Shown here piece by piece: positions 1 through 17,351 of a DNA stretch of 33,933 bases. Source of the stretch: a virus; IMG/VR virus record IMGVR_UViG_3300032213_002871, positions 1 to 33,933 of that record; one strand, given 5' to 3'. Both the position numbers and the translations under genes were made by a program. Each line of letters opens with the position of its first letter. Position 1 is the first letter of the stretch. Below the pieces are notes generated by a model. That model made no database searches. It saw only the letters and a program-made list of their open reading frames with translations, and was not told the DNA's origin.

Positions 1-676
1 CCAAAGCGAGATCGTTGGCAAGTTCGAGACTGTCTTCGATTCCCCAGGAGATTTCGTCGTTCTCGATGGTGATGCAGTTTCTTGCTTCGGGGGTAAGTCT
101 TTTGAGGGCAGCTTTGATACCGGAGGGACCGGCTCTACCGGCAATGTGGACATTGATCTTAAAGTCCTGATATCTTTGACCATACCCCATCCATCTCGCC
201 ATATCCGCATGATATTCGAACTCTTCTATACTGCGATCTACAACATCGGCCCTATCACTAGCCAGAACCACAAACTGACCAGGATGCATACTAAGCCTAA
301 CATCCATCTTCCTAGCAACATCACCAATGGCTCCGAAATGTCTTTCGGCGTAGGCCCTGACATCGGATAGCCGATAAAACCAAGACCAACTCGGCTCAGT
401 ATAAGCAGGAAGTATATCACTGCTGAGTCGTACCATTCTAAGATGCGGTTCAAGTGTGCTAACCTTTTCTACTAACAGTTTAGTTGCTTCAATATTTTGG
501 CGCATCAGTGCCCAAAGTTTTTCTTCAGCAATCTGTTTACTTTGTTTATTTAACCAAGTAATTGTAGTAGTGCCGGTGTTATACTTTTTGCAGTCATCTT
601 TAGGTTTAATGCCGTCAATTTGATCTGCATGATCGATCCATTTACAAGCGAAACCAATTCGGGGTGTAGTAGTCAT
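1..676 (-). CDS. uvsE: UV-damage endonuclease UvsE/UVDE (3' end beyond window)
   Basis: This is the first 225 codons of a UV damage endonuclease, which nicks DNA 5' of UV photoproducts in an alternative excision-repair route. I translated it by hand from the ATG at 676; it stays open to the window edge, so the C-terminal quarter is missing (the family is usually about 280-320 aa). Recognisable motifs are RIGFACKWI near residue 6, VRLSSDILPAYTEP (82-95), LSMHPGQFVVLAS (128-140), NVHIAG (175-180) and ITIENDEISWG (202-212). H131, H177 and E205 fit the metal-binding positions of the TIM-barrel family. A sigma-70-like promoter sits directly upstream and leaves almost no 5' leader. Phages carry such genes to repair their own UV-damaged DNA, an inferred role here. 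Confidence 0.93.
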   Translation of the reverse strand, partial: MTTTPRIGFACKWIDHADQIDGIKPKDDCKKYNTGTTTITWLNKQSKQIAEEKLWALMRQNIEATKLLVEKVSTLEPHLRMVRLSSDILPAYTEPSWSWFYRLSDVRAYAERHFGAIGDVARKMDVRLSMHPGQFVVLASDRADVVDRSIEEFEYHADMARWMGYGQRYQDFKINVHIAGRAGPSGIKAALKRLTPEARNCITIENDEISWGIEDSLELANDLAL

Positions 677-682
677 ACTGCA

Positions 683-711
683 ATTATAGCAGCATTTAAT
701 ATTTCAGTCAA
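683..711 (-). promoter_or_regulatory. sigma-70-like promoter of uvsE, leaderless geometry
   Basis: Read on the minus strand, TTGACT (706-711) and TATAAT (683-688) are separated by 17 nt. The ATG of uvsE begins 6 nt after the -10 box, so transcription should start at or next to the start codon and no Shine-Dalgarno can be present. The -35 box overlaps the stop codon of the upstream gene. Confidence 0.7.
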
Positions 712-1100
712 GCTATCCAGCCTTGCCCTGTAATTTGATGGTACCATAGATAAAAGTTGGCGGGGATTTCGAAACTCCATTCGCCATAAAAATCTATATA
801 ACTTGTGGGTCTGCTAGCCAAATGTAAATATTTCGGCAAAACTTCTAATCCGTTAATTCCGAAATATTCAATTTCTAACGCACTAGAACCTTCTTTAAAA
901 TCTATTAGATTGACCCGGAGACTAATAGGATCAAATAAATTTACTGGAATATGACCGCTACCATTTTCAATATAAAAGCAATCATTAATACAAACTGTGG
1001 CCAAACAATAACCATGCACTTTATATCTTAATTCGATATTGAGTACATTTACAGTTTCAATAGCCGTAAGATCTGAGAAATTCTTTATATCGTGGTGCAT
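708..1100 (-). CDS. hypothetical protein, 130 aa
   Basis: I do not recognise this protein. It starts with MHHDIKNF and has alternating hydrophobic and polar residues suggesting a beta-rich fold, with no signal peptide or membrane segment. The start lies inside the 3' end of the radical SAM gene (44-nt overlap), and no in-frame start closer to the end of that gene was found. It is the last gene of the 708-5860 enzyme cassette and ends at the uvsE promoter. The tight coupling suggests that it works with the radical SAM enzyme, for example as partner or substrate, but that is inference only. Confidence 0.6.
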   Translation of the reverse strand: MHHDIKNFSDLTAIETVNVLNIELRYKVHGYCLATVCINDCFYIENGSGHIPVNLFDPISLRVNLIDFKEGSSALEIEYFGINGLEVLPKYLHLASRPTSYIDFYGEWSFEIPANFYLWYHQITGQGWIA

Positions 1101-2358
1101 AATCTAAAATGCTATTTTCTCTCAGTGATTCGAATCCTTGGAGAAAGTTAACTAGTTTATATCTTAATTCTTCTTCGTCTGCCAAAGGGGAATATGTTTG
1201 TAAAAAATTTAAATAATCATAAGCAACATCTGATATTACTTTTTTAAATGATTCAGCGACACGTACATTTACTATGTTATGCTTTTCTAGTTTAAATTCT
1301 TCTATTACTTTTTTTAACTTAACAATAGTTTCTTGTCTAATATCATTTGGTAATAATTCCATTCTGAGATGCGCTGGTTTATATAGTATATTACAACTTT
1401 CTGCAATGACTTGTTTTTCAAGCATGAATTTAATTAACAAATCTATATCATATATTGTAAAGATATTAGGAGTTATACGCAAACTGATAACAAGATTAGA
1501 AGTTTTTCTTAATTCTAAAAATTTATCTATGTTAGGAATAATATCAACTAGCTTACCAGGATACCTGATATAATCATTGATGGGAGTGACTGCTTCTACA
1601 CTAATACCCAAATGAAAACCACCGAACTCATTTATTAATCGTTCTATTCTACTATCATATATTGTGCCATTTGTTGTTGTGCCAATAATAATATTTTTAC
1701 TAATACCTGCATCTATTAGTTTTTCACAAATTTTATAAAATGCAGGGTCATATAATGTTTCACCGCCGAGAAAGTGTATGTATTTTAAATTTTTTATTTC
1801 AGCAATTTCATTAACAAACTTGTCAAGAAGAGTCGGATCTTGTGTCCACGATTTGTAAAGAGTCGGTTTGGCAAATAATGGGTGTGTTTTACTGAGTTTA
1901 TCGTAGTCTGCTGTTAACCTACTACTCGAAAATGGTTCGCACATAATACATGCACTATTACAAACATTGCCCAAATCTATTTGTAAATCAACTGGTTCGT
2001 ATTTTGCTTGTCCGTTATTATTTTGACTATATTCAAATAATTTATAGTGCGGGCTACTTCTTGTGGTCAATGCAAAATTATTTTTATCTATTCCACTTTT
2101 ATTCAATTGACGAATTCTACCATTTAACTTGCCAAATGTTTCTTCATAATAACAAATTTCGCAATTCTTAGGCTTCTCTCCATTTAATAATTGAAATCTC
2201 ATACGGGACATTTGTTCACTGTTGTAGTATTCCATAATACTAGTATTGGCAAAATTAAGTCCGGCACTTTTTTTGCCCCATCTACATTCCCCAAAAGTGC
2301 CGTCATATTTTAACCGCAGATGAAACCACGGACTAGAACAAAAGGATTTGTCAAACAT
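1057..2358 (-). CDS. radical SAM protein with extra cysteine motifs
   Basis: A 433-aa radical SAM enzyme. The cluster-binding motif CNSACIMC (C133, C137, C140; CX3CX2C) follows LQIDLGNVC, and the SAM-contacting GGE motif is at 198-200 (FLGGETLYDP). An unusual N-terminal section holds further cysteines (CSSPW at 7, GECRWG at 24-28, CEIC at 66-69) that could hold an auxiliary cluster, as in SPASM/twitch-type enzymes. Phage and bacterial members of this group are often annotated only as twitch-domain radical SAM proteins and their substrates are mostly unknown. The gene lies 4 nt after the methyltransferase-like gene and overlaps the 130-aa gene. No clear Shine-Dalgarno precedes the ATG, so translational coupling is likely. 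Confidence 0.88.
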   Translation of the reverse strand: MFDKSFCSSPWFHLRLKYDGTFGECRWGKKSAGLNFANTSIMEYYNSEQMSRMRFQLLNGEKPKNCEICYYEETFGKLNGRIRQLNKSGIDKNNFALTTRSSPHYKLFEYSQNNNGQAKYEPVDLQIDLGNVCNSACIMCEPFSSSRLTADYDKLSKTHPLFAKPTLYKSWTQDPTLLDKFVNEIAEIKNLKYIHFLGGETLYDPAFYKICEKLIDAGISKNIIIGTTTNGTIYDSRIERLINEFGGFHLGISVEAVTPINDYIRYPGKLVDIIPNIDKFLELRKTSNLVISLRITPNIFTIYDIDLLIKFMLEKQVIAESCNILYKPAHLRMELLPNDIRQETIVKLKKVIEEFKLEKHNIVNVRVAESFKKVISDVAYDYLNFLQTYSPLADEEELRYKLVNFLQGFESLRENSILDYAPRYKEFLRSYGY

Positions 2359-2362
2359 TAGT

Positions 2363-3079
2363 TTATTTTTCGAAATTAATACTTACCACGTGTTCGTAAT
2401 TTTTTTTGATTAAACTCTTGTACATTAGATTTTTATGTACTAAAAAATTTTCAGCACCTGCATCTGAAGAAAACTTAGCTAACTGTTTAAAATATAATGT
2501 CCGTCTATTAAAAACATCACAGCATACAGATTCTTTGCCACTTAATTGATATAGTGCTGTAGTAAATGCATTCTTATCGCGTATATCCCAATCGTGAATT
2601 TCAGTGTATGCTGTTAGTTTACCGTTGGATTTAATTATTGAAGGCTGACTATATTCTCTATCTTTAAACTCTTGATTTTTATAATCTTTAATAGTCGTAA
2701 TAATTAAATTATTGGCTAATTTGCAAAGAGACTCTATTTTATTTTTTTGATGATCCTCATTATCTGTGAAAGTCAAATATTCATCGAAGGCTATGATCAC
2801 ATCAAATTTTCTAGGTTGATCAAATTTATTGACCAGAATCCCTTGACTACGTAGCCAATCGAATAAATTGTCGTTTATTTCTGCAACATAAATTTCTTTA
2901 GCATTAATAGATAAAATGGCAGGATTAAATCCTACAAATAAAATGCTTTCACAGCCAACATTATAAAACTCGAATACTTTATCGATAATATCTTGTTTTC
3001 GATCTATTATTTCTTTTCTTTTAGTGTGCAAACAAAAAGCATTAAAGATAGCATTGCTATAGATATTAAATTGACTCAT
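2363..3079 (-). CDS. putative SAM-dependent methyltransferase-like protein
   Basis: A 238-aa protein with a Rossmann-like first strand and loop (SILFVGFNPAIL, residues 45-56), an acidic residue at the end of a second strand (IYVAEIND, 63-70) and KFDVIIAFDEYLTF (about 91-104). These resemble motifs I, II and IV of class I methyltransferases, but the glycine-rich loop is poor (VGFNP rather than GxGxG). The call is therefore tentative. It lies between the amidinotransferase and the radical SAM gene on the same strand with short gaps. It could equally be a degenerate methyltransferase fold with a structural role. Confidence 0.5.
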   Translation of the reverse strand: MSQFNIYSNAIFNAFCLHTKRKEIIDRKQDIIDKVFEFYNVGCESILFVGFNPAILSINAKEIYVAEINDNLFDWLRSQGILVNKFDQPRKFDVIIAFDEYLTFTDNEDHQKNKIESLCKLANNLIITTIKDYKNQEFKDREYSQPSIIKSNGKLTAYTEIHDWDIRDKNAFTTALYQLSGKESVCCDVFNRRTLYFKQLAKFSSDAGAENFLVHKNLMYKSLIKKNYEHVVSINFEK

Positions 3080-3106
3080 ATTATTGTTGTTGTTCCAATA
3101 ATTTAT

Positions 3107-4120
3107 TTAGTGTTGTCGATTTAAATCTAAAGTCACACAGTGAAATCCTCCACCCAATGTTCTACTGTGCCTGAGTTCTAATGGTATAACTGTCATATTC
3201 TTTTGTTCTAATTTATGTATTAATTCAAATTGATTTTTATCAACAATAACGGTGTTCGGATCCACGCTGAAGATATTCATTGCTATCCATTTACTAGCAT
3301 ACGGATATTTGTAAAAGCTTTGTGGAACCACATCATCTACGTAGATCTTGTCCCATGATCTGAACAGTTTGGGACAGTTATCATTGTTTACTCTACTGCC
3401 ATTTAATAATACAAGTCCATCTCGCAACACGCTTATTGTACTATCTATATGTGCATAACTGTATAGGTTATCGACGATATGCACTCGATATTGTTTACCT
3501 AAAATATTTTGTAACCACTGAGCCCCTAACCTATTTCCGCTATTGCTGACCAGATATAGAAGGTCATTATTATGCCTCAATATATTCGCAGCATCAAACA
3601 TTGGTTCTCGTTCACTTAGTACAATATTGCCGTTATCAACATATGTATCTTGCGTTAGCAGTCTCGGCCTCGGTGCAGCAATCCACCTAGCATTATCATT
3701 GATTGCTTTGATTTTAATTTTAAAATAGGCAGACGATTCAAACTGTCTGCTTCTATACACCATCGGGCATTCTATTACTAAATCATCGACGACTAACAAT
3801 ACATCCCTGGGGCAATAGTTATACATACCATCCGTTTCCCATTCGTGTGTTTTTACTATGTATGCATGATCTATATCTGTAGGACGGTACACTTCAACAT
3901 TCAAAGACGTTAGTGTATCTGCTAAAATTTGCAGGTCTTCGTTGGCTTCGTCGATTACGTATTGCGGAAATTTTCCTGATGGCAAAGGTGTATCTTTCCA
4001 ATTAGTTACTTCTTTATTGTAATTAAAAATCTCATCTAATTTTGGAAAGCGGGCTGCTGTGGCATCACCGACTATACAAGATATTAGTTTATCATATTCA
4101 TTTTTGCTTGAAATTTTCAT
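3107..4120 (-). CDS. amidinotransferase (glycine/inosamine amidinotransferase family)
   Basis: A 337-aa member of the arginine:X amidinotransferase family, which moves the amidino group of arginine to an amine acceptor such as glycine or inosamine phosphate. Motifs include EVYRPTD (76-82), YNYCPRDVLLVVDD (100-113), a substrate-loop-like SRQFESSAYF, EPMFDAANI, YSYAHIDSTIS and LGGGFHCVTLDLNR. The putative triad is D176, H224 and C328. As I recall the human enzyme (D254, H303, C407), the His-Cys spacing is identical (104) and the Asp-His spacing differs by one, which argues for an active enzyme. The start overlaps the upstream 2OG oxygenase-like gene by 4 nt. The acceptor cannot be read from sequence. 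Confidence 0.88.
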   Translation of the reverse strand: MKISSKNEYDKLISCIVGDATAARFPKLDEIFNYNKEVTNWKDTPLPSGKFPQYVIDEANEDLQILADTLTSLNVEVYRPTDIDHAYIVKTHEWETDGMYNYCPRDVLLVVDDLVIECPMVYRSRQFESSAYFKIKIKAINDNARWIAAPRPRLLTQDTYVDNGNIVLSEREPMFDAANILRHNNDLLYLVSNSGNRLGAQWLQNILGKQYRVHIVDNLYSYAHIDSTISVLRDGLVLLNGSRVNNDNCPKLFRSWDKIYVDDVVPQSFYKYPYASKWIAMNIFSVDPNTVIVDKNQFELIHKLEQKNMTVIPLELRHSRTLGGGFHCVTLDLNRQH

Positions 4121-4635
4121 AGGTGCCCAGTAATTTGAAGAGTATATCTCGGCGCCAAACCTATATTAGCAGCCATATGTGGTGTATCATAGTGCCACAC
4201 TGCACAATCACCTGCACGCCATCCCACGAACGGATTATTATTGTATTCAGCATAATGGCCAGATTTCCAGTCTTCTAAAAAAACAATGGCGCGAAATATA
4301 CTCTGTTCATGTCCTTGTAAATTGAATAATTCAATATATTTTTTATAAAGGTCGCGGTGATCAGGCAAAACAGTACTAGTATCCATTCGATAATAGCTAG
4401 TGCCTATGTCCTTCCACCCTTTAGCTTTAAATATTTCAATGAATCTTTGATTCCACTGTGGCTGACTGCTACGCATGTCACACATCCATCCAGTAAAAGG
4501 ACCCGAATATCCTTGCGTAACCCAAAGAGCTATACTATCAGGATCATTGAAAGGTTCTCGGATGTAATTTAAACTTTTATATTCATCATCCCAGAACCTT
4601 GCAAGGTGCATCTTAGTGATGTCGCGTATTGCCAT
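4117..4635 (-). CDS. 2OG-Fe(II) oxygenase-like protein
   Basis: A 172-aa protein with the double-stranded beta-helix iron motif: H93-x-D95 (LPDHRD), distal H153 (YDTPHMAANIG) and R163 (APRYTLQITG), which would bind the 2-oxoglutarate carboxylate. WRAGDCAVWHYDTPHMAANIG is the usual jelly-roll C-terminal strand pair. Many phages carry such oxygenases, which hydroxylate proteins, nucleotides or small molecules; the substrate here is unknown. It overlaps the dehydrogenase gene by 23 nt and the amidinotransferase by 4 nt, so the three are almost certainly co-translated. Aspartyl/prolyl hydroxylase-like folds are the main alternative. Confidence 0.72.
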   Translation of the reverse strand: MAIRDITKMHLARFWDDEYKSLNYIREPFNDPDSIALWVTQGYSGPFTGWMCDMRSSQPQWNQRFIEIFKAKGWKDIGTSYYRMDTSTVLPDHRDLYKKYIELFNLQGHEQSIFRAIVFLEDWKSGHYAEYNNNPFVGWRAGDCAVWHYDTPHMAANIGLAPRYTLQITGHL

Positions 4636-5860
4636 AGTGTACTACAGTAACGTCATTGGTCGAACTTAGTTTACGCCACGGATCAACAATAATACTACCA
4701 GGAGCAATTACACAATAAGGTTTTGTGTCTGCTTGTTCGCCTGTATATTCGTAGGTAATTTTACGATTATGTGCCCACAGATAAACAGCCGGGCCATGAA
4801 CTTCTGCTATTACTTCATCTTTATTATCTGCTAACGGATCTACGTATGATACTTCGTGTCCAGCTTCTTTGACATAATGTCCAACTAATGTAGAATAAGA
4901 ACCGATACAATATTCAACGTCTGGTTTGTATGCCTTACCGTGAATGACAATGGGTAAGCCTGTGGCTTTAGATTGTTCAACCAAAAATAGTCCTAAATTC
5001 TTTGCTTGAATTTCTCTGGCATGCATGATAGTGTCAAACAAATCGTAGCCCACTTCATAGTGTTCAGCAAGCCAACGTAGAGCAATATTGTCACGTGGAT
5101 GGCAAGCACCTGCATCGCCCATGCCAGCAGTCATGTACTTAGGACCTTGTAAACGCATAGTACTACGAGCCAACGCATTAGTGACAACATCTACATTAAT
5201 ATTGCCGATCTTCATAGCAAAGTCTTGAATCATATTTACAATGCCTACTTTAGCACTAATGTAAGTATTGTAGAAGATTTTAATAGCTTCGCATTCGTCC
5301 CATGTTCCGACTTCATAACGGGGATCATTCTGCATCATAGTCTTGTATAAATCGATTAACTCTCCAGCGACTCCAGTGAGACTGCCATCTTCAGTTCCGA
5401 TGATAACCATTTCTGGATTAGCCATATCCCATTTGACACTGCCCATGGCAATCAAATATGGATTGTATAAGAATTGGTGTTTTTTATCTAATAGAGTAAT
5501 AAATTTTCTTCGAGTAGTACCAGGTAATACAGTACTAATTAGAACTACTTTTTTACTAGTTGTGGCATATTGATTAACTTTATTAATCGCATCAATAACC
5601 GCGTCATGCCCAAAATCTTTTGGTTCCATGTGACTCGACGGAACAGAGCCATCGTACCCTTCAGCATGTGGAGTAGGAACAGCGATGAAAATCCATTCAG
5701 CATTTTCGCACAGTTCTTTAATATCACAAACTTTTACAGTGTCGCTGGTGCGCGGGTAAATATCATAGCCCCAGACGTCGTGTTTTTCGGCCATTACTTC
5801 AGCACAGTCTAAACCAAGCTTACCAATACCGATAAATCCAATTTTTTGTTTTTCCATCAT
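4613..5860 (-). CDS. UDP-glucose/GDP-mannose dehydrogenase family protein
   Basis: A 415-aa NAD-dependent sugar-nucleotide dehydrogenase, the type that oxidises UDP-glucose or a related sugar nucleotide twice to the uronate. The NAD-binding GFIGIGKLG is at 8-16. The central-domain helix CEAIKIFYNTYISAKVG (from 190) holds the expected Lys (K194), and the catalytic cysteine is C253 in GAGACHPRDNIAL. HGKAYKPDVEYCIGS (from 318) resembles the C-terminal GLAFKPNTDD-type motif. The start is ATG-ATG at 5860/5857, preceded by AAGGA, with a sigma-70-like promoter at 5890-5918. It is the first gene of the enzyme cassette. The exact sugar is not determined; N-acetylhexosamine dehydrogenases of the same family are an alternative. 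Confidence 0.87.
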   Translation of the reverse strand: MMEKQKIGFIGIGKLGLDCAEVMAEKHDVWGYDIYPRTSDTVKVCDIKELCENAEWIFIAVPTPHAEGYDGSVPSSHMEPKDFGHDAVIDAINKVNQYATTSKKVVLISTVLPGTTRRKFITLLDKKHQFLYNPYLIAMGSVKWDMANPEMVIIGTEDGSLTGVAGELIDLYKTMMQNDPRYEVGTWDECEAIKIFYNTYISAKVGIVNMIQDFAMKIGNINVDVVTNALARSTMRLQGPKYMTAGMGDAGACHPRDNIALRWLAEHYEVGYDLFDTIMHAREIQAKNLGLFLVEQSKATGLPIVIHGKAYKPDVEYCIGSYSTLVGHYVKEAGHEVSYVDPLADNKDEVIAEVHGPAVYLWAHNRKITYEYTGEQADTKPYCVIAPGSIIVDPWRKLSSTNDVTVVHYGNTRHH

Positions 5861-7018
5861 ATGTTTTCCTTAGAAAATTTTTATCTTATATTATACACAA
5901 ATTTACTTAAACCTGCAAATCTACATGATTGCTATTTTTTTCCATTCGGCAGTACTAACGTAAATGAGTTAATGTTCAATATTCATGAGAATAGTTATGT
6001 TCATAAAAACTTTTGTTTCTTCTATGACCAAGAACCTTCCAATATTGATACTGTACAAACTTGTGTTAAACACTATGCGTCATTGCAAAAGAATAAAAAC
6101 AAAGAAATAATTTTTGCCAACAGTGAAAAATCATCTTTCATAGACACTATATGTCTTGAAAACGGTTTTAAAAATTGGTACTATTTCTTTCATGGATTTG
6201 CTGCGTTGACTTGGTACAGAGATTATCAATACATCCCTAATTTTGAAAATCACTTCACTAAAGTATTTATTAGCTATAACAGACTGGTAACAAAAGATAG
6301 AAGCTATCGTTTAAATTTAGTAAGTCATTTGTACGAAAGAGATCTGTTAAAACACGGACATGTAAGTTTAATACTGCGAGACAACGGATTGGGAACCTGG
6401 CAGGAAGAATTGGTGGATCCAAGTTCAAGATTAAGCTTAGAAGCCAAAGCCCGAGTCGAAAAAAATATTAAAGAATTAAAAAATGGATTAATAATAGATT
6501 CTGACAATCCGCCCGGACATGCCAGTGCTAATACAGGAATAGCAGAAATTTCTATGCATAAATCTGCGCTTTGGCACATAGTTACCGAAACAGTTTTTTA
6601 TGATGATAAAAAACATCTTACTGAAAAAATTTTTAAACCAATTACAGCAAAAAGACCTTTTATTCTAGTGGGAGCACTAAACAATCTTGCATACTTAAAA
6701 AGTTACGGTTTTAAAACTTTTGATCAGTGGATCGACGAAAGTTATGACAATGAGCCCGATCCAGATAAAAGAATACTGTTAATCACCGAGCAAGTTGAAA
6801 AACTTTGCTCATTGTCAGCTTCTCAATTGGACGCTATGTACATTGAAATGAAACCTGTTTTAGAATACAATTTTCAACATTTTTACGGAAACTTTAAAAC
6901 ACTTATAATTGACGAACTAGTTGATAACTTTCGTCAAGTTCTCTACGATTTCACCGACAGTAAAGTTGATATTTCTAACATTAATTTTGACCAAGTTAAA
7001 AACATCCTGCACAAATAA
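5861..7018 (+). CDS. glycosyltransferase-like phage protein
   Basis: A 385-aa protein when started at the ATG at 5861; an upstream in-frame TTG at 5846 would lie inside the divergent gene. It has no signal peptide. The C-terminal part contains LTEKIFKPITAKRPFILVG followed by LKSYGFKTFDQWIDESYD (about residues 255-300), resembling the nucleotide-sugar-binding TEK region of GT10/GT-B-like glycosyltransferases seen in many T4-like phages. No Shine-Dalgarno is visible before 5861. The neighbours (dehydrogenase, epimerase, GT2 gene further on) fit a sugar-transfer job, perhaps host surface or virion glycosylation. I am sure of the coding region, less of the activity. Confidence 0.62.
   Translation: MFSLENFYLILYTNLLKPANLHDCYFFPFGSTNVNELMFNIHENSYVHKNFCFFYDQEPSNIDTVQTCVKHYASLQKNKNKEIIFANSEKSSFIDTICLENGFKNWYYFFHGFAALTWYRDYQYIPNFENHFTKVFISYNRLVTKDRSYRLNLVSHLYERDLLKHGHVSLILRDNGLGTWQEELVDPSSRLSLEAKARVEKNIKELKNGLIIDSDNPPGHASANTGIAEISMHKSALWHIVTETVFYDDKKHLTEKIFKPITAKRPFILVGALNNLAYLKSYGFKTFDQWIDESYDNEPDPDKRILLITEQVEKLCSLSASQLDAMYIEMKPVLEYNFQHFYGNFKTLIIDELVDNFRQVLYDFTDSKVDISNINFDQVKNILHK
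5890..5918 (-). promoter_or_regulatory. sigma-70-like promoter of the enzyme cassette
   Basis: On the minus strand TTGCAG (5913-5918), 17 nt, TATAAT (5890-5895). Transcription would start around 5883 and give a leader of about 23 nt that includes the AAGGA ribosome-binding site of the dehydrogenase gene. The promoter lies inside the first codons of the divergent plus-strand gene, an unusual arrangement. Confidence 0.6.
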
Positions 7019-7910: not shown

Positions 7911-9965
7911 TTATTTTTCGTGTGCTACAAATTCTCCATTCCAATTTGGACCTAAATTCTGTTGCTTCATAAACTCACAACGTTCGATCCAAATCTTATA
8001 ATACTTGTCCATTTGACCACCAAATAGACCTTTCATCTTCTTACACATAGAAGCAGCTTCATCAAACTTTTTCTGTTTATACAAGGCATGCATTGCTTCG
8101 TGCTGTTCTCTATCTTTGCTATAATCTTCGCCACGCGGTCGGATTACGGTGTAGATTAAGTCTGCCACAGTCTTGCCTTTTGGTTGTAAATTATCTAGTA
8201 GTAAGTAGAAAAAGTCGTCTTTGGTTCTGTTGTATGTCTCAGCACCAATAATAGCCAACACACCATAGGCCTTACAACGTGCTTCTAAACGTGCCGCAGT
8301 GCTAACCATATCACCTAAGATATCATAACTGTGTCTATCAGTGCTTCCCATTTCACCAATAAAGCCAATGCCTGTGTTACAACCCCACCCCATTGCAGCA
8401 GGTGGTAAACCCTGTGCTTCCATTAGTTTAGTGTATTCATCTACAGCATCTAACATTTCTAACCCTACCTTAACGATAGTACGAGCGTGGTTGGGGTCTT
8501 CAATAGGAGCACCGTGTATGTGCATACTAGCGTCACCTACATACTTGATAACCATACCTTTGTTGTCCATGATAGGTTTGCTGATAGCATCCATGTAACC
8601 ATTCATATACTTGCCTAACCCGCCTACATCATCACCGTAGTGTTCACCGATAGGTGTAAAGCCACGCAGGTCACTGAACATAACTGATACGTCTTTACGC
8701 ACACCACGTTTGATTAAGTCTGGATCTTTTTGCAACATCTCTACTACTTCTTTACTGCAATATCCAGCAAACTGTTTCTTTATGGCTTGCTTTTGTAAGA
8801 ACTCTGAGACAAATTTGACACCATAGGCATGCAAAGCGACCAGGATTGTGCCAGCTGCAAAGGCAGTACTGTCAAATAAGAATAAAAAGTTGCTGTAAGC
8901 ATAGTAACTGCCAGCAATACCGCCAGCAACCAATACAATAACTGACGCAAGTCCAACATAAGTCCACCTTGTTAAAAACAGTAATAACAATCCTGCAATC
9001 GCAATTGCGATAATTTCTAAACCATCTGCATAGTCTGGACGTTGTATGTTTACTCCATTGGCCATAGTACCAATAACTGCGGCCTGCATGTCTTGTGGCC
9101 ACACACTACCGATACTGGTTGGCACAGGATTACCCAGTCCCGCTGCGGCAGTTCCTACAATAACAATGGCACCTTTAAGGTCTTTTGGCAAATCAGCCAT
9201 AGACACTGATTTACTTTTTTGACTCCAATCAATCCAAACACGGCCTAAATTGTCTGTGGGAATAACACCCACATCTCCAGGCAAGCGCATTTTTTCTACT
9301 CCACCCTCAAATAGTTTAACTTGAAAAGTACTGTTAGCAGTGGCCACACGCATGGTTTCCATGGCCAAACTGGGGTACAGTTTTCCGTCTACGGTGACAA
9401 TTAAAGGCAATCTACGATTAACACCGTCGATTTCTGGCAGTGTATTTGTTGTACCAACGCCTGCGGCTGCATTTTCTAACTGAGGTATATTAGCAATAAG
9501 ACCGGGATAGGTAACAATTTGGTCTAACCATTCTGGATTGAGTACAGCACTGCCTGGCGTTTTTGGAGTGTTCTTTGTTTTTTGTGCAGGTGTATTAGCT
9601 AGCACAACAGGATATTGTTTTAGTGTTGCAGCTAGTGCAGCGTCTCCGCCTTGCCTATCTGGTTCGGGCATTAGTACATTCCATACTACTAATCCTGCTT
9701 TGCGGGCATACAATTCTTGAATCATAGCTGCATAGACATCACGCTTAAATGGCCATTGTCCGTATTTGGTCATAGTGTCTTCGTCAATATTGACTGTGAC
9801 TATGTTATTTTCAGTTGGTGCTTTGCTGGTTATTAATGTGTCAAAGTAGCGTAGTCTTACACTTTCGATAAATGTAGTGTCAGATACCCGTAGACCTAGC
9901 ACAACCGCTAGTGTAATTAATGCTGTCCATGGATTAACTAGTATTTTTTTAAGGTTGATCTTCAT
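7911..9965 (-). CDS. CHASE2-domain adenylate cyclase (class III)
   Basis: A 684-aa transmembrane sensor cyclase. A short cytoplasmic N-terminus and one span (about 13-27) lead to an extracytoplasmic CHASE2 domain (about 35-305, with VTVNIDEDTMTKYGQWPFKR and KGAIVIVGTAAAG). Three spans follow (about 315-385), then a class III cyclase domain (about 425-590). Using numbering with the upstream TTG as residue 1, metal aspartates are D433 (MFSDLRGFT) and D479 (KYVGDA), and the adenine-selecting pair is K475 and D549. R560 is present, but the usual transition-state Asn is Ser556 (MVSTAARLE). The product should be cAMP if active. ATG at 9965 has AAGGAA upstream. A full-length sensor cyclase on a phage genome is unusual. 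Confidence 0.92.
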   Translation of the reverse strand: MKINLKKILVNPWTALITLAVVLGLRVSDTTFIESVRLRYFDTLITSKAPTENNIVTVNIDEDTMTKYGQWPFKRDVYAAMIQELYARKAGLVVWNVLMPEPDRQGGDAALAATLKQYPVVLANTPAQKTKNTPKTPGSAVLNPEWLDQIVTYPGLIANIPQLENAAAGVGTTNTLPEIDGVNRRLPLIVTVDGKLYPSLAMETMRVATANSTFQVKLFEGGVEKMRLPGDVGVIPTDNLGRVWIDWSQKSKSVSMADLPKDLKGAIVIVGTAAAGLGNPVPTSIGSVWPQDMQAAVIGTMANGVNIQRPDYADGLEIIAIAIAGLLLLFLTRWTYVGLASVIVLVAGGIAGSYYAYSNFLFLFDSTAFAAGTILVALHAYGVKFVSEFLQKQAIKKQFAGYCSKEVVEMLQKDPDLIKRGVRKDVSVMFSDLRGFTPIGEHYGDDVGGLGKYMNGYMDAISKPIMDNKGMVIKYVGDASMHIHGAPIEDPNHARTIVKVGLEMLDAVDEYTKLMEAQGLPPAAMGWGCNTGIGFIGEMGSTDRHSYDILGDMVSTAARLEARCKAYGVLAIIGAETYNRTKDDFFYLLLDNLQPKGKTVADLIYTVIRPRGEDYSKDREQHEAMHALYKQKKFDEAASMCKKMKGLFGGQMDKYYKIWIERCEFMKQQNLGPNWNGEFVAHEK

Positions 9966-9996
9966 CAATTTGTTTCCTTAACTTCTAATCGATTGA

Positions 9997-12310: not shown

Positions 12311-12318
12311 TATTTATC
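12311..12318 (-). promoter_or_regulatory. T4-type late promoter motif, leaderless
   Basis: GATAAATA followed by TTAAACT and the ATG of glycine-rich gene 2. It matches the T4 late -10 consensus TATAAATA in seven of eight positions. The 7-nt distance to the ATG equals that of glycine-rich gene 1 and of the gene starting at 23812. Confidence 0.65.
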
Positions 12319-13138
12319 GGAAAATCATGTCTTCCACAATCTGTTCCATAGAATATAAAGGTTTATAACCCAGTTTTTTTAATTTTTCTGTGTTCATGAA
12401 CATGCTGTGAACTTGAACAATTTTATGAAATTCGGGCGGTTCGATATTAACTAGCCGACTAGAACTGTTAGTAACAGTGTGTGCATATTCGATTATAGTT
12501 TTAAACTTGATGGGTTTTCCGTTGCCGATATTATATACAGTGTTAATATCTCCCTGATCTATCACTAATTTAACTGCTCTTGCCACATCAGTAACATGCA
12601 TATAATCCCTGTACATGTTACCGCCATCATATATTTTGATATCCTTGTTGGCTTTAATTTCATTAATTAAAAATTGCAGTGCATTTTTTTGTAGGCTGGC
12701 TTTTGGATCTCCTGGACCCACAACATTTGCTAATCTTAAAATTCTATATTTGATGTTAAAAACTTTGGCATAACACACTAATAAATCTTCTGCGGCCTTT
12801 TTTGTTATACTATAAAATCCAGTTGGTCGACAAGGGCTGTTTTCCTGAGCGGGCATTTCAGTATCACCGTAGACAAACCAACTACTGACAAAATTAAATG
12901 TTACATCTTTGTCCTTGCACTGTTCTAATACACGCATCAATGTAGTTAAATTGGTATTGATATCCACATACGGATCCGTTAGCATATTATAATTGCTAAT
13001 GGTACTGATGAGGTATAGGATATTTTTGGATTTTACAGTGTAATCATTGCGATCATTGACTATAACGTTGGGATATTGTTTAACGAAATTGGAGCCGACG
13101 AATCCCAGCCCCCCAAATACTTGAAGTTTTGTGTCCAT
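12314..13138 (-). CDS. NAD-dependent sugar-nucleotide epimerase/dehydratase (extended SDR)
   Basis: A 274-aa extended short-chain dehydrogenase counted from the ATG at 13138 (an upstream TTG at 13144 would overlap the -10 box). The Rossmann motif is VFGGLGFVGSN (near residues 7-17). A catalytic Ser in FVSSWFVYGD and Y-x3-K in YSITKKAAEDLL (about 109-113) are present, as is YRDYMHVTDVARAV, typical of UDP-sugar epimerases and dehydratases. It is somewhat shorter than the usual 300-340 aa. It lies between the curli operon and the adhesins and has its own sigma-70-like promoter. With the dehydrogenase, GT-like and GT2 genes it suggests a phage-directed sugar modification. Confidence 0.87.
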   Translation of the reverse strand: MDTKLQVFGGLGFVGSNFVKQYPNVIVNDRNDYTVKSKNILYLISTISNYNMLTDPYVDINTNLTTLMRVLEQCKDKDVTFNFVSSWFVYGDTEMPAQENSPCRPTGFYSITKKAAEDLLVCYAKVFNIKYRILRLANVVGPGDPKASLQKNALQFLINEIKANKDIKIYDGGNMYRDYMHVTDVARAVKLVIDQGDINTVYNIGNGKPIKFKTIIEYAHTVTNSSSRLVNIEPPEFHKIVQVHSMFMNTEKLKKLGYKPLYSMEQIVEDMIFR

Positions 13139-13143
13139 ACACA

Positions 13144-13172
13144 ATTATATAGTATTGACTACACCCAGTCAA
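13144..13172 (-). promoter_or_regulatory. sigma-70-like promoter of the epimerase gene, leaderless geometry
   Basis: TTGACT (13167-13172), 17 nt, TATAAT (13144-13149), then 5 nt to the ATG at 13138. The predicted transcription start falls at the start codon, and no Shine-Dalgarno is possible. It lies in the short gap after the last curli-operon gene. Confidence 0.72.
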
Positions 13173-13176
13173 ATTA

Positions 13177-14478
13177 TTATGGCTGCACCACTGTGGTTGC
13201 ACATCCGCCTACCATACCACAACTCTGGGTTATAGAAAATATTTGATTACCATTTTGTGTTAGATTAAGAGTGGCTGCACCACCTGCATTGGTTAGATCA
13301 ATGGTTGCTTTATTTTGTGTTGATCCTGTTTGATTAATATTCGCAGTATGGCCATTGCCTGTTAATTTGTAGTCTAAGTAATGTTGTCCAGTACCTTGTT
13401 GTGTGGCAGTAACATTGTTATTTGACCCGTTGATCACAGTTCCAAACATAATTTTATTACCATTATCTAATTGCTTGTTAGTAATAATGTTATTGTTGCC
13501 CGATATGGTTGTTTCCATATAATGGCCGCCCACTCCTCCCGAATTAGATTGCTGAGTAATCAAATTATTTGAACTTCCGTAAACATCCAATGCTAGATAA
13601 TGACCGTTGCCACCAATGGCTGTGCCTGTATTATTTCTAGCTTGCCCTATATTAATAGTATTAGAATTTCCGATGACTCGCAGTCCTATTTCATTTTGTC
13701 CAGCACCAGTTACGCCCTGATTAATGGTTATGTTATTTTGATCGCCTTGTATTTTGGATGCCTGTTGGCCAATGCCTGTGATAAGATTTTTATTTCCAGT
13801 TTGAACGACAGTTAGACTATTGTTATTACCAATTTGTTCAATGTATATTCCGTTGTTGGTGATAGTTTTAGCAGCCCATGCATTTACTCTTGTTTGCTGT
13901 GTTGCAGTTATATTAGAAGAATACACTGGGCCACCTCCGCCCGAATTATTGGGCGTGGATGTAGCTGTCTGACCAGCAGATAATGGTTCAGTACTATAAC
14001 TTGCATTTGCGTATGCATCAGCTTGTGCAATAGTAGGATTAAGTGTTCCTGTCCATGACACACCCCCCGTACCGCTCATCCCATTGCTGCCACTGAACAA
14101 TTGCCCAGTGTTATTATCACTGCCCACAAAGAAAAAATAGTCAGGTCCCATGTTAACTATCTTGCCAGAACCCATTGTGGCTTTTAGTTGTCCTAAATTA
14201 TTATATTGTTTTGCCAAATAAGGAAAACTGGCATTTCCGCTAAGTTCGAATTTTACATAGTCCCCCACTGCCCAACTTAGTTGCCCTGATGTCCACGGAA
14301 TTTTGTATGCAGTGCCCGGCTGCTTACTGTAAATTTGGCAGGTTGTAGTGTTCAAACATGCACTGACATTCCATTGACTGTCGGCAATTTGATATCTACC
14401 AAATTTTATATCCGTTAATGCTGAATGTGCATTAACAGAAAATACAAACAATGCCAGTGACAATAAAAAATTAATCAT
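13177..14478 (-). CDS. curlin-repeat secreted protein with N-terminal extra domain
   Basis: 433 aa. A signal peptide (about 1-20, ending VNAHSA) precedes a novel N-terminal domain of about 160 residues with C41/C47 (DIKFGRYQIADSQWNV onward). A Gly/Ser/Asn linker (175-190) follows, then curlin-type repeats from about 209 to 420. The clearest repeat is GIYIEQIGNNNSLTVVQTGN (210-229), the N-x5-Q-x-G-x2-N pattern of CsgA/CsgB amyloid strands, followed by further N/Q/G-rich repeats at loosely similar spacing. C420 and C426 near the end could form a disulfide. It is a probable cargo of the CsgG pore: minor subunit, nucleator or adhesive tip. The ATG overlaps the stop of the FecR gene by 4 nt. Confidence 0.82.
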   Translation of the reverse strand: MINFLLSLALFVFSVNAHSALTDIKFGRYQIADSQWNVSACLNTTTCQIYSKQPGTAYKIPWTSGQLSWAVGDYVKFELSGNASFPYLAKQYNNLGQLKATMGSGKIVNMGPDYFFFVGSDNNTGQLFSGSNGMSGTGGVSWTGTLNPTIAQADAYANASYSTEPLSAGQTATSTPNNSGGGGPVYSSNITATQQTRVNAWAAKTITNNGIYIEQIGNNNSLTVVQTGNKNLITGIGQQASKIQGDQNNITINQGVTGAGQNEIGLRVIGNSNTINIGQARNNTGTAIGGNGHYLALDVYGSSNNLITQQSNSGGVGGHYMETTISGNNNIITNKQLDNGNKIMFGTVINGSNNNVTATQQGTGQHYLDYKLTGNGHTANINQTGSTQNKATIDLTNAGGAATLNLTQNGNQIFSITQSCGMVGGCATTVVQP

Positions 14479-15584
14479 CTTTGTATTAAGGTAATAATTG
14501 TATTACCTCCCGCGTTGACACGATTTTTAAATTCCAATGTTCCCTGTGTTTGATAAATGGTGCTATTTTGAGTAAATGGCGTTGCTACACATTGTATGTT
14601 ACTGCCATCATTCCTGCATAGTTCAACTCTTGATTCGTCTTTGATCGCAATTATGCCACTGCTACGTCTATAATCTGGCAGAACAGTGTCTACTTCATCC
14701 AATAATTTTTCATTTAATATATCACCAATCATATCAAACAATCCATTTAAAAAAGATGTATCTAAAAAATCATAACTTAATCTATCCTGAAATATTCTAG
14801 CTTGTTGTATGTCAAGTTGATTTTCTAATCCTTGTTCTTTTAAAAAATCAACATCTAAAAAATTTTTAGTTGTTAATTTATTATCGGAGTTTTCTTTTCT
14901 CAATTCTTTTGGTGGACTTAACAGTATTATATTACTAATAGCGTCTTCACTTAAATTGAGAATGGCGGGTCTCATAGGTGGAGCACTACGACTTTCAACT
15001 CTGGTTGCTTGAAACGCTTGATTAAGTATTACTTGTCCTGCATCACTTTCGACGATGATTGTCCCAACTATGCAATTACGTTCAACATCTTGTTTGGTTC
15101 TACTAGGTTTATTATCCGGGCAACTGGGTAAAAGTATAATAGTACTTTGCCCAAGTTCGTCTACTGTGGCTGTGAAATCTGTGCCCCTTACACTGATAGT
15201 AGCAGTAGGGGTATTTAATGCTACGTTCTGAGGTGCATTTTTTGCAATCTGGCCCGATGCATATCTCACAGTACCTAACGCAATCTTTGCTCCTAATTTC
15301 CCAGACTTACTTTTTGGATCGTAGACAAAGTCATCTATTACCAGTTTAGAATTTTCGTTAATTTGGACTTTGGTGTCATCCTCAAACGTTATGCCCACTT
15401 TACCTCTGGCAGTTCTAATAGCGTCATTCATTTCCACTCCCGTTCCTCTACCCGCAGTGATTGAATTGTTTTGTCGTTGTATACTGGGAGGAGTATTCAC
15501 CAGTTCCGTTACTTTACCAACAGCAGCAATAGAAGTATCAGATAGAATTAATAAAAGTGAGAATGATAATATTCTCCATGTCAT
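14475..15584 (-). CDS. FecR-domain periplasmic/secreted protein in curli operon
   Basis: 369 aa with a signal peptide (about 1-20, LILSDTSIAAVG) and a FecR domain at about 50-140: IRTARGKVGITFEDDTKVQI, then SGKLGAKIALGTVRYASG and PTATISVRGTDFTATV. This is the beta-solenoid-like FecR fold used in many cell-surface and FecR-like proteins. Unlike true FecR sigma regulators, no membrane anchor precedes the domain and no sigma-factor gene is nearby. The C-terminal half is unassigned; it has a cysteine pair (C321, C329 region). Being sandwiched between two curlin-repeat genes implies a role in curli assembly, cargo capture or wall anchoring. Confidence 0.8.
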   Translation of the reverse strand: MTWRILSFSLLLILSDTSIAAVGKVTELVNTPPSIQRQNNSITAGRGTGVEMNDAIRTARGKVGITFEDDTKVQINENSKLVIDDFVYDPKSKSGKLGAKIALGTVRYASGQIAKNAPQNVALNTPTATISVRGTDFTATVDELGQSTIILLPSCPDNKPSRTKQDVERNCIVGTIIVESDAGQVILNQAFQATRVESRSAPPMRPAILNLSEDAISNIILLSPPKELRKENSDNKLTTKNFLDVDFLKEQGLENQLDIQQARIFQDRLSYDFLDTSFLNGLFDMIGDILNEKLLDEVDTVLPDYRRSSGIIAIKDESRVELCRNDGSNIQCVATPFTQNSTIYQTQGTLEFKNRVNAGGNTIITLIQR

Positions 15585-15586
15585 TT

Positions 15587-16369
15587 TTAATTCTTGGTTG
15601 TTATATTAAATGTATTTCCCGAACCAATGCCTACTATGTTTACTGTAGTGTCTATGGTACCTTGTTGTAATACAGTGGTGCTATTGCTAGATCCTGTCAG
15701 GTTTATAGTAGCAGAATGGCCAGAAGTACTTCCGCCACTTTGTGTTATTGAAGTAACATTCAATGTGCCCACTGTGGTAAGATTAACAGTGCCTTTGTCA
15801 CCGGTAAGATTTAAAGTAGTTTCATTTCCTCCACCACCTGTTTGATTAATCACTGATGTAGTAGAGTTGGCGTTAATTGTGGCAACTATTTTATTATTAT
15901 TTCCGCCAGCTTGGTCCACGGTTAAACTATTATTAGAACCTAGTATGTTAACTGTGGCTATTGCTCCATCACCGGACTGATTAATGTCTAAATTAGTACT
16001 AGAATTTATTCCAGTGCCAGCATTATTTAAATTAATAGTACCAACAGCATTGCTGCCTGTGACTTTATAAACAACGCTTGTTGGACTCGACCCGTTGGCT
16101 GTAGTGGTAACTAAACCTAAATTCAATATGTTGCCGCTACCAATTTGCTCCACAGATACGTTAACAGCATCACCAGTTATCTTAGCCGGGGTAGTATTTC
16201 CAGTTCCCACTCCCTGTATTCCTCGAATCCTATTACCCGCACCTTCTTGCAGCATTGTTACGACAGCGTTATCACCTGCTTGATCAATGTATATGCTGTT
16301 GTCAGATCCTATAGCTAATGATGATGATATCATCATTAATAGTACTGCTATAATTTTATTTTTTTTCAT
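15587..16369 (-). CDS. curlin-repeat amyloid subunit (CsgA/CsgB-like)
   Basis: 260 aa from the ATG at 16369, giving a classic signal peptide (MKKNKIIAVLLMMISSSLA). An in-frame TTG at 16402 has AGGAG four bases upstream and would add 11 residues, so the start is not settled. The first repeat, SIYIDQAGDNAVVTMLQEG, has the curlin pattern seen in the other subunit (IYIEQIGNNN). The remainder is a long N/T/G-rich solenoid of about ten strands with N, Q and G at regular intervals (VEQIGSGN, DINQSGDG, TVDQAGGNNN, VINQTGGGGN, ITQSGG, LQQG). Length is larger than E. coli CsgA (about 150 aa). Likely the main amyloid subunit or nucleator exported through CsgG. Confidence 0.82.
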   Translation of the reverse strand: MKKNKIIAVLLMMISSSLAIGSDNSIYIDQAGDNAVVTMLQEGAGNRIRGIQGVGTGNTTPAKITGDAVNVSVEQIGSGNILNLGLVTTTANGSSPTSVVYKVTGSNAVGTINLNNAGTGINSSTNLDINQSGDGAIATVNILGSNNSLTVDQAGGNNNKIVATINANSTTSVINQTGGGGNETTLNLTGDKGTVNLTTVGTLNVTSITQSGGSTSGHSATINLTGSSNSTTVLQQGTIDTTVNIVGIGSGNTFNITTKN

Positions 16370-16428
16370 TTTTGTTAAAAGTTGATTTATTTTTTTCCTC
16401 AACTTGCTCCTGTAGTTTTACTTTTATT

Positions 16429-17349
16429 TTATTTTCCTCCATTAGCTTGTCCGCGATCGGGCTGTGCCAATGATGCGGGAGATGTTTCTCCTCTTTTATC
16501 CGGGGTCGTCTCTTGAACCAGCTCAATTTGATTTCCCTCCTTATTATGTTGTGTTGTTTGTGTTTTAAAATCCCAAATTGATTTTCGTTGACCTTCTTTG
16601 ATTAACTCAACTACCGCCGCTTCTATAGCAGTCTTCACCGCATAAGTACCCGGTTCGTTTATTGTTAAACCAGCTTCAGCTTCAAATGCTTTAGTTCCCA
16701 GATCAAAGAATTTAAACGCTGTGGTACTATCGCTGCTACTTAATATGGTTTTTTGCACTGTTACGCTGATAAGAACTTTACCGGTGTTTACACTAACGGC
16801 TCTTAAACTAACTGTAACAATATCTTCACTATACTGAGTTTGAGTGCCTATACCCAACCATCTAGCACCAACTCCACCCGACTTAGTACTAGAATCATAG
16901 CCAATGATACCACCTTCTATAATCATACCAGCAAATTGCATAGGCATTAAAGGTCTGGCATTGTTACCTTCGTAAGCCTCCCTCATTTGTCGGATAATTA
17001 ATCTTTCTTTTGTCAGGTTATCTATTCCCACTCGCTCAACTACTTCGAACCATTGACCTCGTCCTACATCTTGCAGTGCCTTAATAAGAAACGATTCTGC
17101 TCCTTGGGTTACCGCAGTACTCAAACTTGCAATATTTTGTAGGGGTCTTCTTTGTCCAGTTTTATCTTGAAAACTGTATACTGCCACACTGATCGGTTTT
17201 CCTGCTGCAGGGGGTGGTACACTGTCAAATTCTTTTTGAAGTACATTTTTAGTAACTTCTGGCGGCGCGTCTAAGTCTCCTGCCAATTGATGTATTGCAC
17301 ATCCATTTAGCAAACTTACCATTGTTAGGACTATTAATTTATTCTTCAT
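16429..17349 (-). CDS. csgG: CsgG curli secretion channel lipoprotein
   Basis: 306 aa, the outer-membrane pore of curli (type VIII) secretion. A lipoprotein signal peptide ends in LLNGC (Cys17). Clear CsgG family blocks are SVAVYSFQDKTGQ, LSTAVTQGAESFLIKALQD, FEVVERVGIDNLTKERLIIR, IEGGIIGYDSSTKSGGVGARW and GIGTQTQYSEDIVTVSLRAV; the last ones match E. coli CsgG closely. The channel-constriction loop is GQRRPLQNIASLSTAV, different from the Y/N/F set of E. coli. A tail of about 45 residues after the CsgG domain is charged and Gln/Pro-rich. It is 2 nt downstream of csgF without a Shine-Dalgarno, implying translational coupling. Confidence 0.96.
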   Translation of the reverse strand: MKNKLIVLTMVSLLNGCAIHQLAGDLDAPPEVTKNVLQKEFDSVPPPAAGKPISVAVYSFQDKTGQRRPLQNIASLSTAVTQGAESFLIKALQDVGRGQWFEVVERVGIDNLTKERLIIRQMREAYEGNNARPLMPMQFAGMIIEGGIIGYDSSTKSGGVGARWLGIGTQTQYSEDIVTVSLRAVSVNTGKVLISVTVQKTILSSSDSTTAFKFFDLGTKAFEAEAGLTINEPGTYAVKTAIEAAVVELIKEGQRKSIWDFKTQTTQHNKEGNQIELVQETTPDKRGETSPASLAQPDRGQANGGK

Positions 17350-17351
17350 AA

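Follow-up and report, generated by a model that had tools for sequence, protein, structure and literature searches.

We describe a gene set in a 33.9-kb phage contig (the whole stretch analysed, hereafter the window) that we read as a phage sugar-decoration module of UGD, 2OG, AMT, MT4 and GT7, with the 2OG-AMT part swappable on a UGD core and the product most likely directed at a host envelope glycan or the virion; we give this reading about an even chance. A more specific form, which we advance only tentatively, is that phages make a guanidino sugar, whose chemistry is otherwise known from aminocyclitol antibiotics, and use it to decorate the surface of host or virion, or else DNA, the amidino module being interchangeable with NadE-type amidation plus carbamoylation on a common UGD core. 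Within the literature searched, amidino-adding chemistry of this kind is unreported for phages. Should the product indeed be a guanidinylated sugar, phages would be using a group new to phage biology, again within the literature searched, to alter the charge of surfaces and the way they are recognised. The block or parts of it are present in hundreds of aquatic phage contigs and are therefore common, and because some phages carry the amidino module and others the NadE module, a ready comparative test of the modification's role is at hand.

Organization of the locus

Open reading frame calls place six minus-strand genes at 708-5860 (Table 1), with junctions from UGD to ORF6 of, in order, a 23-nt overlap, a 4-nt overlap, a 27-nt gap, a 4-nt gap and a 44-nt overlap, in agreement with the run of same-strand, closely spaced genes described in the initial annotation. 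The 4-nt 2OG/AMT overlap and the approximately 23-nt UGD/2OG overlap were present in most relatives, at times changed through start-codon choice or insertions, and the 44-nt RSAM/ORF6 overlap was also found in the related loci L002, L003 and L008. When the window was compared with L002 and L003, dN/dS was 0.02-0.17 for all genes where it could be estimated, including ORF6 (about 0.15); judged from these sequences, all cassette genes appear to be under purifying selection. GT7 lay outside the six genes first noted, though it belongs to the gene set: its start codon abuts that of UGD (CATATG; the alternative start by ORF calling is a TTG at 5846), and it occupies the same divergent place in 23/23 relatives.

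Table 1. Features of the window discussed in the text.
Feature	Position	Strand	Description
UGD	4613-5860	-	415 aa; UDP-glucose/GDP-mannose-dehydrogenase-family enzyme
2OG	4117-4635	-	172 aa; small 2OG-Fe(II) oxygenase-like protein
AMT	3107-4120	-	337 aa; StrB1-type amidinotransferase
MT4	2363-3079	-	238 aa; class I methyltransferase-fold protein, optional member
RSAM	1057-2358	-	433 aa; N-terminal twitch radical SAM protein, rare add-on
ORF6	708-1100	-	130 aa; no family assigned; adjoins RSAM in L002, L003 and L008
GT7	5861-7018	+	385 aa, ATG at 5861; divergent GT-B-fold glycosyltransferase-like protein
Promoter and Shine-Dalgarno before UGD	5867-5919	-	TTTGCA-N18-TATAAT (5919-5890) and AAGGA; inside GT7 coding sequence
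UvdE-like endonuclease	2-676	-	PF03851 8e-31; downstream neighbour of cassette
SDR	12314-13144	-	nucleotide-sugar epimerase/dehydratase; PF01370 5.5e-32; GGLGFVG and YSITK motifs
MT20	20796-21575	-	methyltransferase; 54% identical to Synechococcus phage Bellamy gp226
GT21	21553-22305	-	family-2-like glycosyltransferase; overlaps MT20; PF00535 1.6e-4, just below cut-off

The sigma-70-like promoter proposed at the head of the cassette is likewise upheld, by conservation rather than by site counts. Promoter-like sites in the window occurred at chance number (33 found versus 32.4 expected from shuffles), and we therefore took conservation as support: the TATAAT and Shine-Dalgarno ahead of UGD were kept in 21/23 relatives, and one clade of relatives carries TTGACA-N18-TATAAT.

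Conservation and module exchange

Searches of IMG/VR yielded 360 stretches for UGD, 404 for 2OG and at least 578 for AMT. The order GT7 (divergent)/UGD/2OG/AMT was found in 23/23 first-found loci, and in wider samples AMT accompanied 2OG in 62/62 2OG loci, with 2OG in 52/54 and GT7 in 54/54 AMT loci; this conserved order, with its near-inseparable pair, supports sugar decoration. Most of these synteny counts were drawn from related phages, and gene order was still kept where AMT identity fell to 46-49%. MT4 is a common but optional member, present in 32/54 AMT loci and missing from the other 22, and RSAM and ORF6 are a rare add-on (6/54 and 3/54, respectively). No relatives of MT4, RSAM or GT7 turned up in a search of sequenced phage isolates at E 1e-5.

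The 2OG-AMT pair also recurs in other contexts, which further supports sugar decoration. For example, in Synechococcus phage S-SCSM2R adjacent, overlapping 2OG and AMT genes (26% and 40% identical; the former annotated as a 2OG-Fe(II) oxygenase) lie within a glycosyltransferase operon, in a run of GT25-type genes amid DegT and radical SAM genes, whereas UGD is elsewhere in that genome. In a Bdellovibrionota genome the pair adjoins a GT7 homologue. At locus L038 AMT is preceded by a 2OG gene of another family (PF13640), which likewise favours sugar decoration. Looking for the set in other viral and bacterial genomes, as had been suggested, thus recovered both the core order and the pair. The supposition that these genes make up a pathway-like set and no chance neighbourhood is borne out by UGD, 2OG, AMT and GT7, which are linked, not scattered, in relatives; the notion of all six genes as one unit is not, given the counts for MT4, RSAM and ORF6 and the association of UGD with other modules as well.

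Those other modules are illustrated by Bellamy and Pelagibacter phage HTVC008M, whose UGD homologues (58% and 47%) likewise sit amid glycosyltransferases and a methyltransferase, but with NadE and a NolO-like carbamoyltransferase in place of 2OG and AMT. AMT and NadE modules proved mutually exclusive (n=57: 30 with AMT, 20 with NadE, 0 with both, 7 with neither), and the UGD tree contains at least five switches between modules. The best reading is that 2OG and AMT together form an exchangeable module on a UGD core, which in other phages carries NadE-like and carbamoyltransferase enzymes instead; both this exclusivity and the glycosyltransferase surroundings of UGD in Bellamy and HTVC008M argue for sugar decoration.

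The literature searched holds no description of this gene set, so the initial remark that no described phage pathway was known with this gene set stands for the full set, but partial precedents exist. Campylobacter phages CP220 and CPt10 carry an amidinotransferase clustered with radical SAM and nucleotide-sugar-transferase genes (PMC2853527); their amidinotransferase is merely 27% identical to AMT, the cluster is without UGD, and comparison with it found no homologue of the window 2OG. In related pelagimyophages, which are large aquatic phages, cassettes with UDP-glucose 6-dehydrogenase, glycosyltransferase and radical SAM genes are attributed, in the available text of PMC7029224, to modification of the host O-chain, which favours sugar decoration here; that text mentions no amidinotransferase. 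A curli-like operon is additionally reported there for these phages.

Predicted enzymes and alternative readings

The best solved-structure relative of AMT is StrB1 (L-arginine:inosamine-phosphate amidinotransferase, PDB 1bwd; E=1.2e-94, 320 bits, residues 3-335), as compared to about 168 bits for AGAT, and AMT also matches phrog_25854 (1.8e-30). The triad is intact, as initially annotated (C328, H224 and D176), with D106 and R125 also present. The 300-flap reads YSYAH versus YASTH in StrB1, AGAT having DPNPM before the His, and this active-site element, whose role in amidinotransferases has been described (PMC4887976, PMC3684758), is by sequence predicted to be StrB1-like rather than glycine-type. 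The homology is thus full-length and extends to catalytic residues and flap, which argues for sugar decoration; unlike StrB1, AMT adjoins UGD, 2OG and GT7 and falls in a separate phage clade.

StrB1 itself makes a streptomycin precursor, and in the contig of locus L038 AMT occurs with halogenase-, ligase- and carbamoyltransferase-like genes. Both observations would suit a product other than a glycan, namely a small, diffusible guanidino compound such as an osmolyte or a metabolite resembling an aminocyclitol or antibiotic. We consider this unlikely: ORF and family searches placed none of the inositol dehydrogenase, inosose aminotransferase and kinase genes of the StrB1 pathway within the cassette, no assembly-line, transporter or resistance gene adjoins it, and the GT7 and UGD partners indicate sugars on acceptors.

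UGD matches PF03721 (6.5e-15) and PF00984 (9e-14), both above cut-off, and phrog_9148 (3.6e-88), and has the catalytic residues K194, N198, C253 and D257 (EAIKIFYN, ACHPRD). Its nucleotide is unproven because the C-terminal UDP-binding domain is weakly conserved (PF03720, E 0.0012; its 19.6 bits fall short of the cut-off, 30). Interrupted UGD copies, in which an Rfam search found no intron, are read as split-intein halves.

GT7 matched no Pfam, PHROG or NCBIfam family. Its AlphaFold model (pLDDT 84.2) retrieved GT-B glycosyltransferases in Foldseek (prob 0.9-0.99 but weak E 5e-3) and aligned along almost its entire length with GT-B enzymes (VIA-align Z 8.6-12.5), so that on the model GT7 is assigned a GT-B fold. 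The top match was T4 beta-glucosyltransferase (Z 12.5, rmsd 4.0-4.1, 270 aligned), followed by GT10 fucosyltransferase (Z 10.9). This match fits a scheme of DNA hypermodification in which GT7, like the T4 enzyme, would put a UGD-derived guanidinylated sugar on a modified base and so evade host nucleases, and base modification is compatible with 2OG enzymes and amidino groups. Nevertheless, we hold it to be quite unlikely, since no thymidylate-synthase/hydroxymethylase-type (PF00303) homologue was found in 15/16 relatives, including 212-kb and 225-kb records (though records may be incomplete genomes), members of the UGD family keep company with carbamoyltransferase, NadE and glycosyltransferases, and GT7 is strongly divergent (25-83% identity among relatives), as is frequent for surface-related genes.

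In 2OG, H93, D95, H153 and R163 were invariant in 25 sequences, matching an HxD...H iron triad and a 2OG-binding Arg. An hhalign comparison with an Asp_Arg_Hydrox set gave E 0.0012 (control 0.64) and superposed the invariant H/H/N/R columns of that set on H93/H153/N157/R163. Profile searches of solved structures with the 2OG, MT4 and GT7 alignments returned nothing significant. RSAM scored 253.6 bits against NF033640 (cut-off 170) and contains CNSACIMC at 133-140, with C133, C137 and C140 in a CxxxCxxC arrangement; ORF6 had zero matches in Pfam, PHROG and NCBIfam. Radical SAM/SPASM-like and 2OG enzymes often act on peptides, and the Campylobacter phage amidinotransferase lies in a radical SAM gene cluster, so RSAM, 2OG, AMT and MT4 might modify a peptide or virion protein. 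This is very improbable, as most loci lack RSAM and ORF6, a conserved short precursor gene was not seen in the core, and UGD and GT7 would go unexplained.

Even more doubtful is that these are unrelated auxiliary genes held together by common descent only. Most loci come from related phages, whose order could be inherited, but order persists at the low AMT identities given above, 2OG and AMT are found paired again in settings unrelated to this one, and modules were repeatedly swapped at UGD.

The AlphaFold model of MT4 (pLDDT 84.7) matched SAM methyltransferases in Foldseek (1e-10) and, in VIA-align (Z about 18, given as 18.4 for the fold; rmsd 3.0; 210-214 aligned), the amino-sugar N-methyltransferases CalS10, TylM1, DesVI and KedS8, as well as YunM. 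This likeness, together with the GT-B assignment of GT7, speaks for sugar decoration. VGFNP replaces the glycine-rich SAM motif I (E/DxGxGxG), and because of this degeneracy MT4 is termed a methyltransferase-fold protein, not a proven methyltransferase. Guanidinoacetate methyltransferase was not among the structural matches listed, which excludes nothing. Least probable of all is a creatine-like route of guanidinoacetate formation by AMT and methylation by MT4: an amidinotransferase and a methyltransferase do occur together, and GAMT annotations are reported to be enriched in ocean viruses (PMC11360552), but AMT is far nearer StrB1 than AGAT and is without the AGAT flap residues, MT4 is missing from many AMT loci, and UGD, 2OG and GT7 are left unexplained.

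A candidate route

For sugar decoration, UGD would oxidise a nucleotide-activated sugar, presumably to a uronate, and 2OG may hydroxylate a pathway intermediate. The reaction class of AMT, amidino transfer, is well supported, and the enzyme would move the amidino group of host arginine to an acceptor that we infer to be an amine on either the sugar or one of its substituents, yielding a guanidino group. MT4, by its fold, may methylate a neighbouring amine or guanidine, and GT7, a putative GT-B enzyme, would attach the product to an acceptor such as a glycan. A host envelope glycan or virion so modified could differ in charge and recognition, for instance blocking superinfection. The guanidinylated sugar first named as a possible product is the best-supported direction.

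Several observations count against sugar decoration: an aminotransferase or other amine source is absent from the cassette, the UDP-binding domain of UGD is weak, the SAM motif of MT4 is degenerate, the nearest GT7 fold is a DNA glucosyltransferase, and the synteny counts stem mostly from related phages. A DegT aminotransferase was considered as a general cassette partner and rejected, homologues above cut-off being found in only 3/20 relatives.

Other genes in the window

The UvdE-like endonuclease gene is a frequent downstream neighbour at AMT loci; a promoter-like site at 711-683 (11/12 matches, with TG) serves it separately, and it is probably its own transcription unit. Bellamy gp226, the homologue of MT20, directly precedes and overlaps UGD in Bellamy, and MT20 is likely a UGD partner in a wider pathway.

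Core and accessory genes of the cassette

The initial annotation took a block of six genes to look like a small pathway. We label these genes UGD (UDP-glucose-dehydrogenase-like), 2OG (2OG-Fe(II) oxygenase-like), AMT (StrB1-type amidinotransferase), MT4 (methyltransferase-fold), a radical SAM gene and an unnamed 130-aa ORF6. All six are present at the claimed positions and strand. From the first gene to the last, neighbours overlap by 23 and 4 nt at the first two junctions, lie 27 and 4 nt apart at the next two, and overlap by 44 nt at the last. Because dN/dS against the two nearest relatives was 0.02-0.17 for each gene where estimable, we read all six, ORF6 included, as maintained proteins. 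With AMT as query, 23 IMG/VR loci were recovered, and the order GT7 (a divergent GT-B glycosyltransferase-like gene), UGD, 2OG, AMT was found in 23/23, with insertions between these genes in a few (L002, L011, L018, L024). Wider scans were scored by profile HMMs on loci flanked by 3 kb or more on each side; their counts are not independent events, since the seed lists were ordered by how closely the hits resemble the window and came from related phages. AMT occurred in 62/62 2OG-seeded loci, and AMT-seeded loci contained 2OG (52/54), UGD (50/54), GT7 (54/54), MT4 (32/54), radical SAM (6/54) and ORF6 (3/54). MT4-seeded loci contained UGD (54/62) and AMT (45/62), while 28 of the 47 UGD-seeded loci contained AMT. 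Therefore, on co-occurrence, GT7, UGD, 2OG and AMT form the core, MT4 is an optional member, and radical SAM together with ORF6 is added in rare cases; the linkage of UGD, 2OG and AMT is supported, and that of all six genes as one unit is not.

The 2OG-AMT pair also recurs independently elsewhere. In cyanophage S-SCSM2R the two genes again overlap (26% and 40% identical) and share an operon with glycosyltransferase genes, a fragment of DegT and a radical SAM gene. In a Bdellovibrionota genome the pair adjoins a GT7 homologue and a weak aminotransferase-like protein, and in L038, a contig labelled Chloroflexi, AMT comes straight after a 2OG gene of another family (PF13640), and GT7-like genes flank them on either side. 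Sugars and their decoration are the theme common to the cassette's contexts. L038 (binned as Chloroflexi NAT137) also shows, mostly by eye, a long one-strand cluster of SGNH-like, B12 radical SAM, 2OG, AMT, GT7-like, DegT and carbamoyltransferase-, halogenase-, AMP-ligase- and nitroreductase-like genes.

Enzyme classes and a candidate route

StrB1 (PDB 1bwd) was by far the best solved relative of AMT (320 bits; about 168 for AGAT, the glycine type), and C328, H224, D176, D106 and R125 are kept. The flap reads YSYAH and that of StrB1 YASTH; flap residues help decide which substrates such enzymes accept (PMC4887976, PMC3684758). In a quick tree, 34/36 IMG/VR phage sequences formed one supported group amid StrB-like bacterial sequences. 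One phage clade (L013-L024) has Glu for catalytic Asp176, as do some actinobacterial relatives, and lacks ~30 loop residues. UGD has NAD-binding and central domains over cut-off, the catalytic Lys/Asn/Cys/Asp and a weak UDP-binding domain match. In 2OG, HxD, H and R are invariant, and aspartyl/asparaginyl hydroxylases match weakly in correct register (E 0.0012; control 0.64). The confident MT4 model (pLDDT 84.7) has its closest structural matches, at Z about 18, in amino-sugar N-methyltransferases and YunM, a shared fold that does not show function, and its SAM motif is degenerate.

The data show the gene content and its conservation, the classes of fold and active site, and how genes pair and swap; we infer a route in which UGD would form a sugar uronate, 2OG would hydroxylate, AMT would amidinate the amine of the sugar or of a substituent, MT4 would methylate and GT7 would carry out transfer. 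By analogy with an argument published for related phages (PMC7029224), the target would most likely be an envelope glycan or the virion. The main gap in this sugar-decoration reading is the amine source: the cassette contains no aminotransferase, and DegT is rare among relatives. DNA modification by the cassette has to be taken seriously as a rival mechanism, given the fold of GT7, whose confident GT-B model (pLDDT 84.2) most resembles T4 beta-glucosyltransferase (Z 12.5), with GT10 fucosyltransferase next (Z 10.9), a likeness that does not itself show function; the absence of thymidylate-synthase-type homologues in 15/16 relatives, whose records may be incomplete, counts against it. As to precedent, an amidinotransferase was reported earlier in Campylobacter phages (PMC2853527), and pelagimyophages carry UGD, glycosyltransferase and radical SAM cassettes (PMC7029224). 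The literature searched yielded no description of the UGD-2OG-AMT-GT7 set, which we file with phage glycan-modifying cassettes and not with the streptomycin pathway.

Probable module exchange at UGD

Isolates Bellamy and HTVC008M carry the same UGD among glycosyltransferases, a NolO-like carbamoyltransferase, NadE and a methyltransferase, the last being, in Bellamy, 54% identical to MT20, a methyltransferase of the window. Of the 57 UGD loci whose flanking sequence was long enough, 30 had AMT, 20 NadE, none both and 7 neither (Fisher p 7e-10, relatedness ignored). Since this state requires at least five changes on the UGD tree, at least two of them forced by well-supported branches, the modules have probably been exchanged more than once. 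A NadE-type enzyme could amidate the carboxylate of a uronate; this or NAD supply is a possible role for the NadE-like gene, which lies immediately upstream of UGD in many of the 20 loci (L151, L155, L158 and others). In L155, L158 and L167 a QueE-like radical SAM gene precedes it.

In L011, L018, L069, L070 and L071 UGD is interrupted at its catalytic Cys by apparent halves of a split intein, the N-half starting at Cys and the C-half ending ...VVHN ahead of CHPRD; in L018 an endonuclease-like ORF sits between the halves. An Rfam search of the interrupted copies found no intron. The arrangement looks like the known 'fractured gene' organization, here in a sugar dehydrogenase.

Promoters and genomic setting

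A promoter had been proposed at the cassette head. Consensus counting put promoter-like sites in the window at shuffle level (33 vs 32.4), but 21/23 relatives keep TATAAT and a Shine-Dalgarno sequence ahead of UGD, one clade having TTGACA-N18-TATAAT, so the site stands by conservation and not by count. It is embedded in the GT7 coding sequence. The UGD and GT7 start codons abut as CATATG, so that each gene's coding sequence contains the 5′ signals of its neighbour; in many relatives, too, the two starts are 0-3 nt apart. Directly ahead of UvdE, a strong TG-extended sigma-70-like site, TTGACT-N17-TATAAT, suggests a separate transcription unit.

Positions of features in the window and compared loci
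Feature	Source	Position	Basis
GT7	window	5861-7018 (+)	
MT20	window	20796-21575 (-)	
Abutting UGD/GT7 starts	window	5858-5863	
Site ahead of UvdE	window	711-683	
CHASE2/adenylate-cyclase-like gene	window	7911-9968	phrog_35576, 4e-175; domain call by eye
Curli-like operon	window	13177-17816	by eye
Curlin-repeat-like proteins	window	13177-14478, 15587-16402	by eye
FecR-like protein	window	14475-15584	by eye
CsgG-like lipoprotein	window	16429-17349	by eye
One-strand cluster	L038	1371-15690	mostly by eye
Interrupted UGD	L011	5808-7490	
Interrupted UGD	L018	661-3193	
Interrupted UGD	L070	1226-3779	
Interrupted UGD	L071	4445-6998	
Interrupted UGD	L069	C-half near 1307	

The window is a complete IMG/VR record in itself (33,933 bases) and probably a piece of a large phage genome, given that the small subunit of ribonucleotide reductase is encoded at one end, with a cut UvdE at the other, and PAAR-like and other virion-type genes. 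The gene for a 685-aa CHASE2/adenylate-cyclase-like protein adjoins the cassette in some nearer relatives only. The curli-like operon has a precedent in pelagimyophages (PMC7029224).
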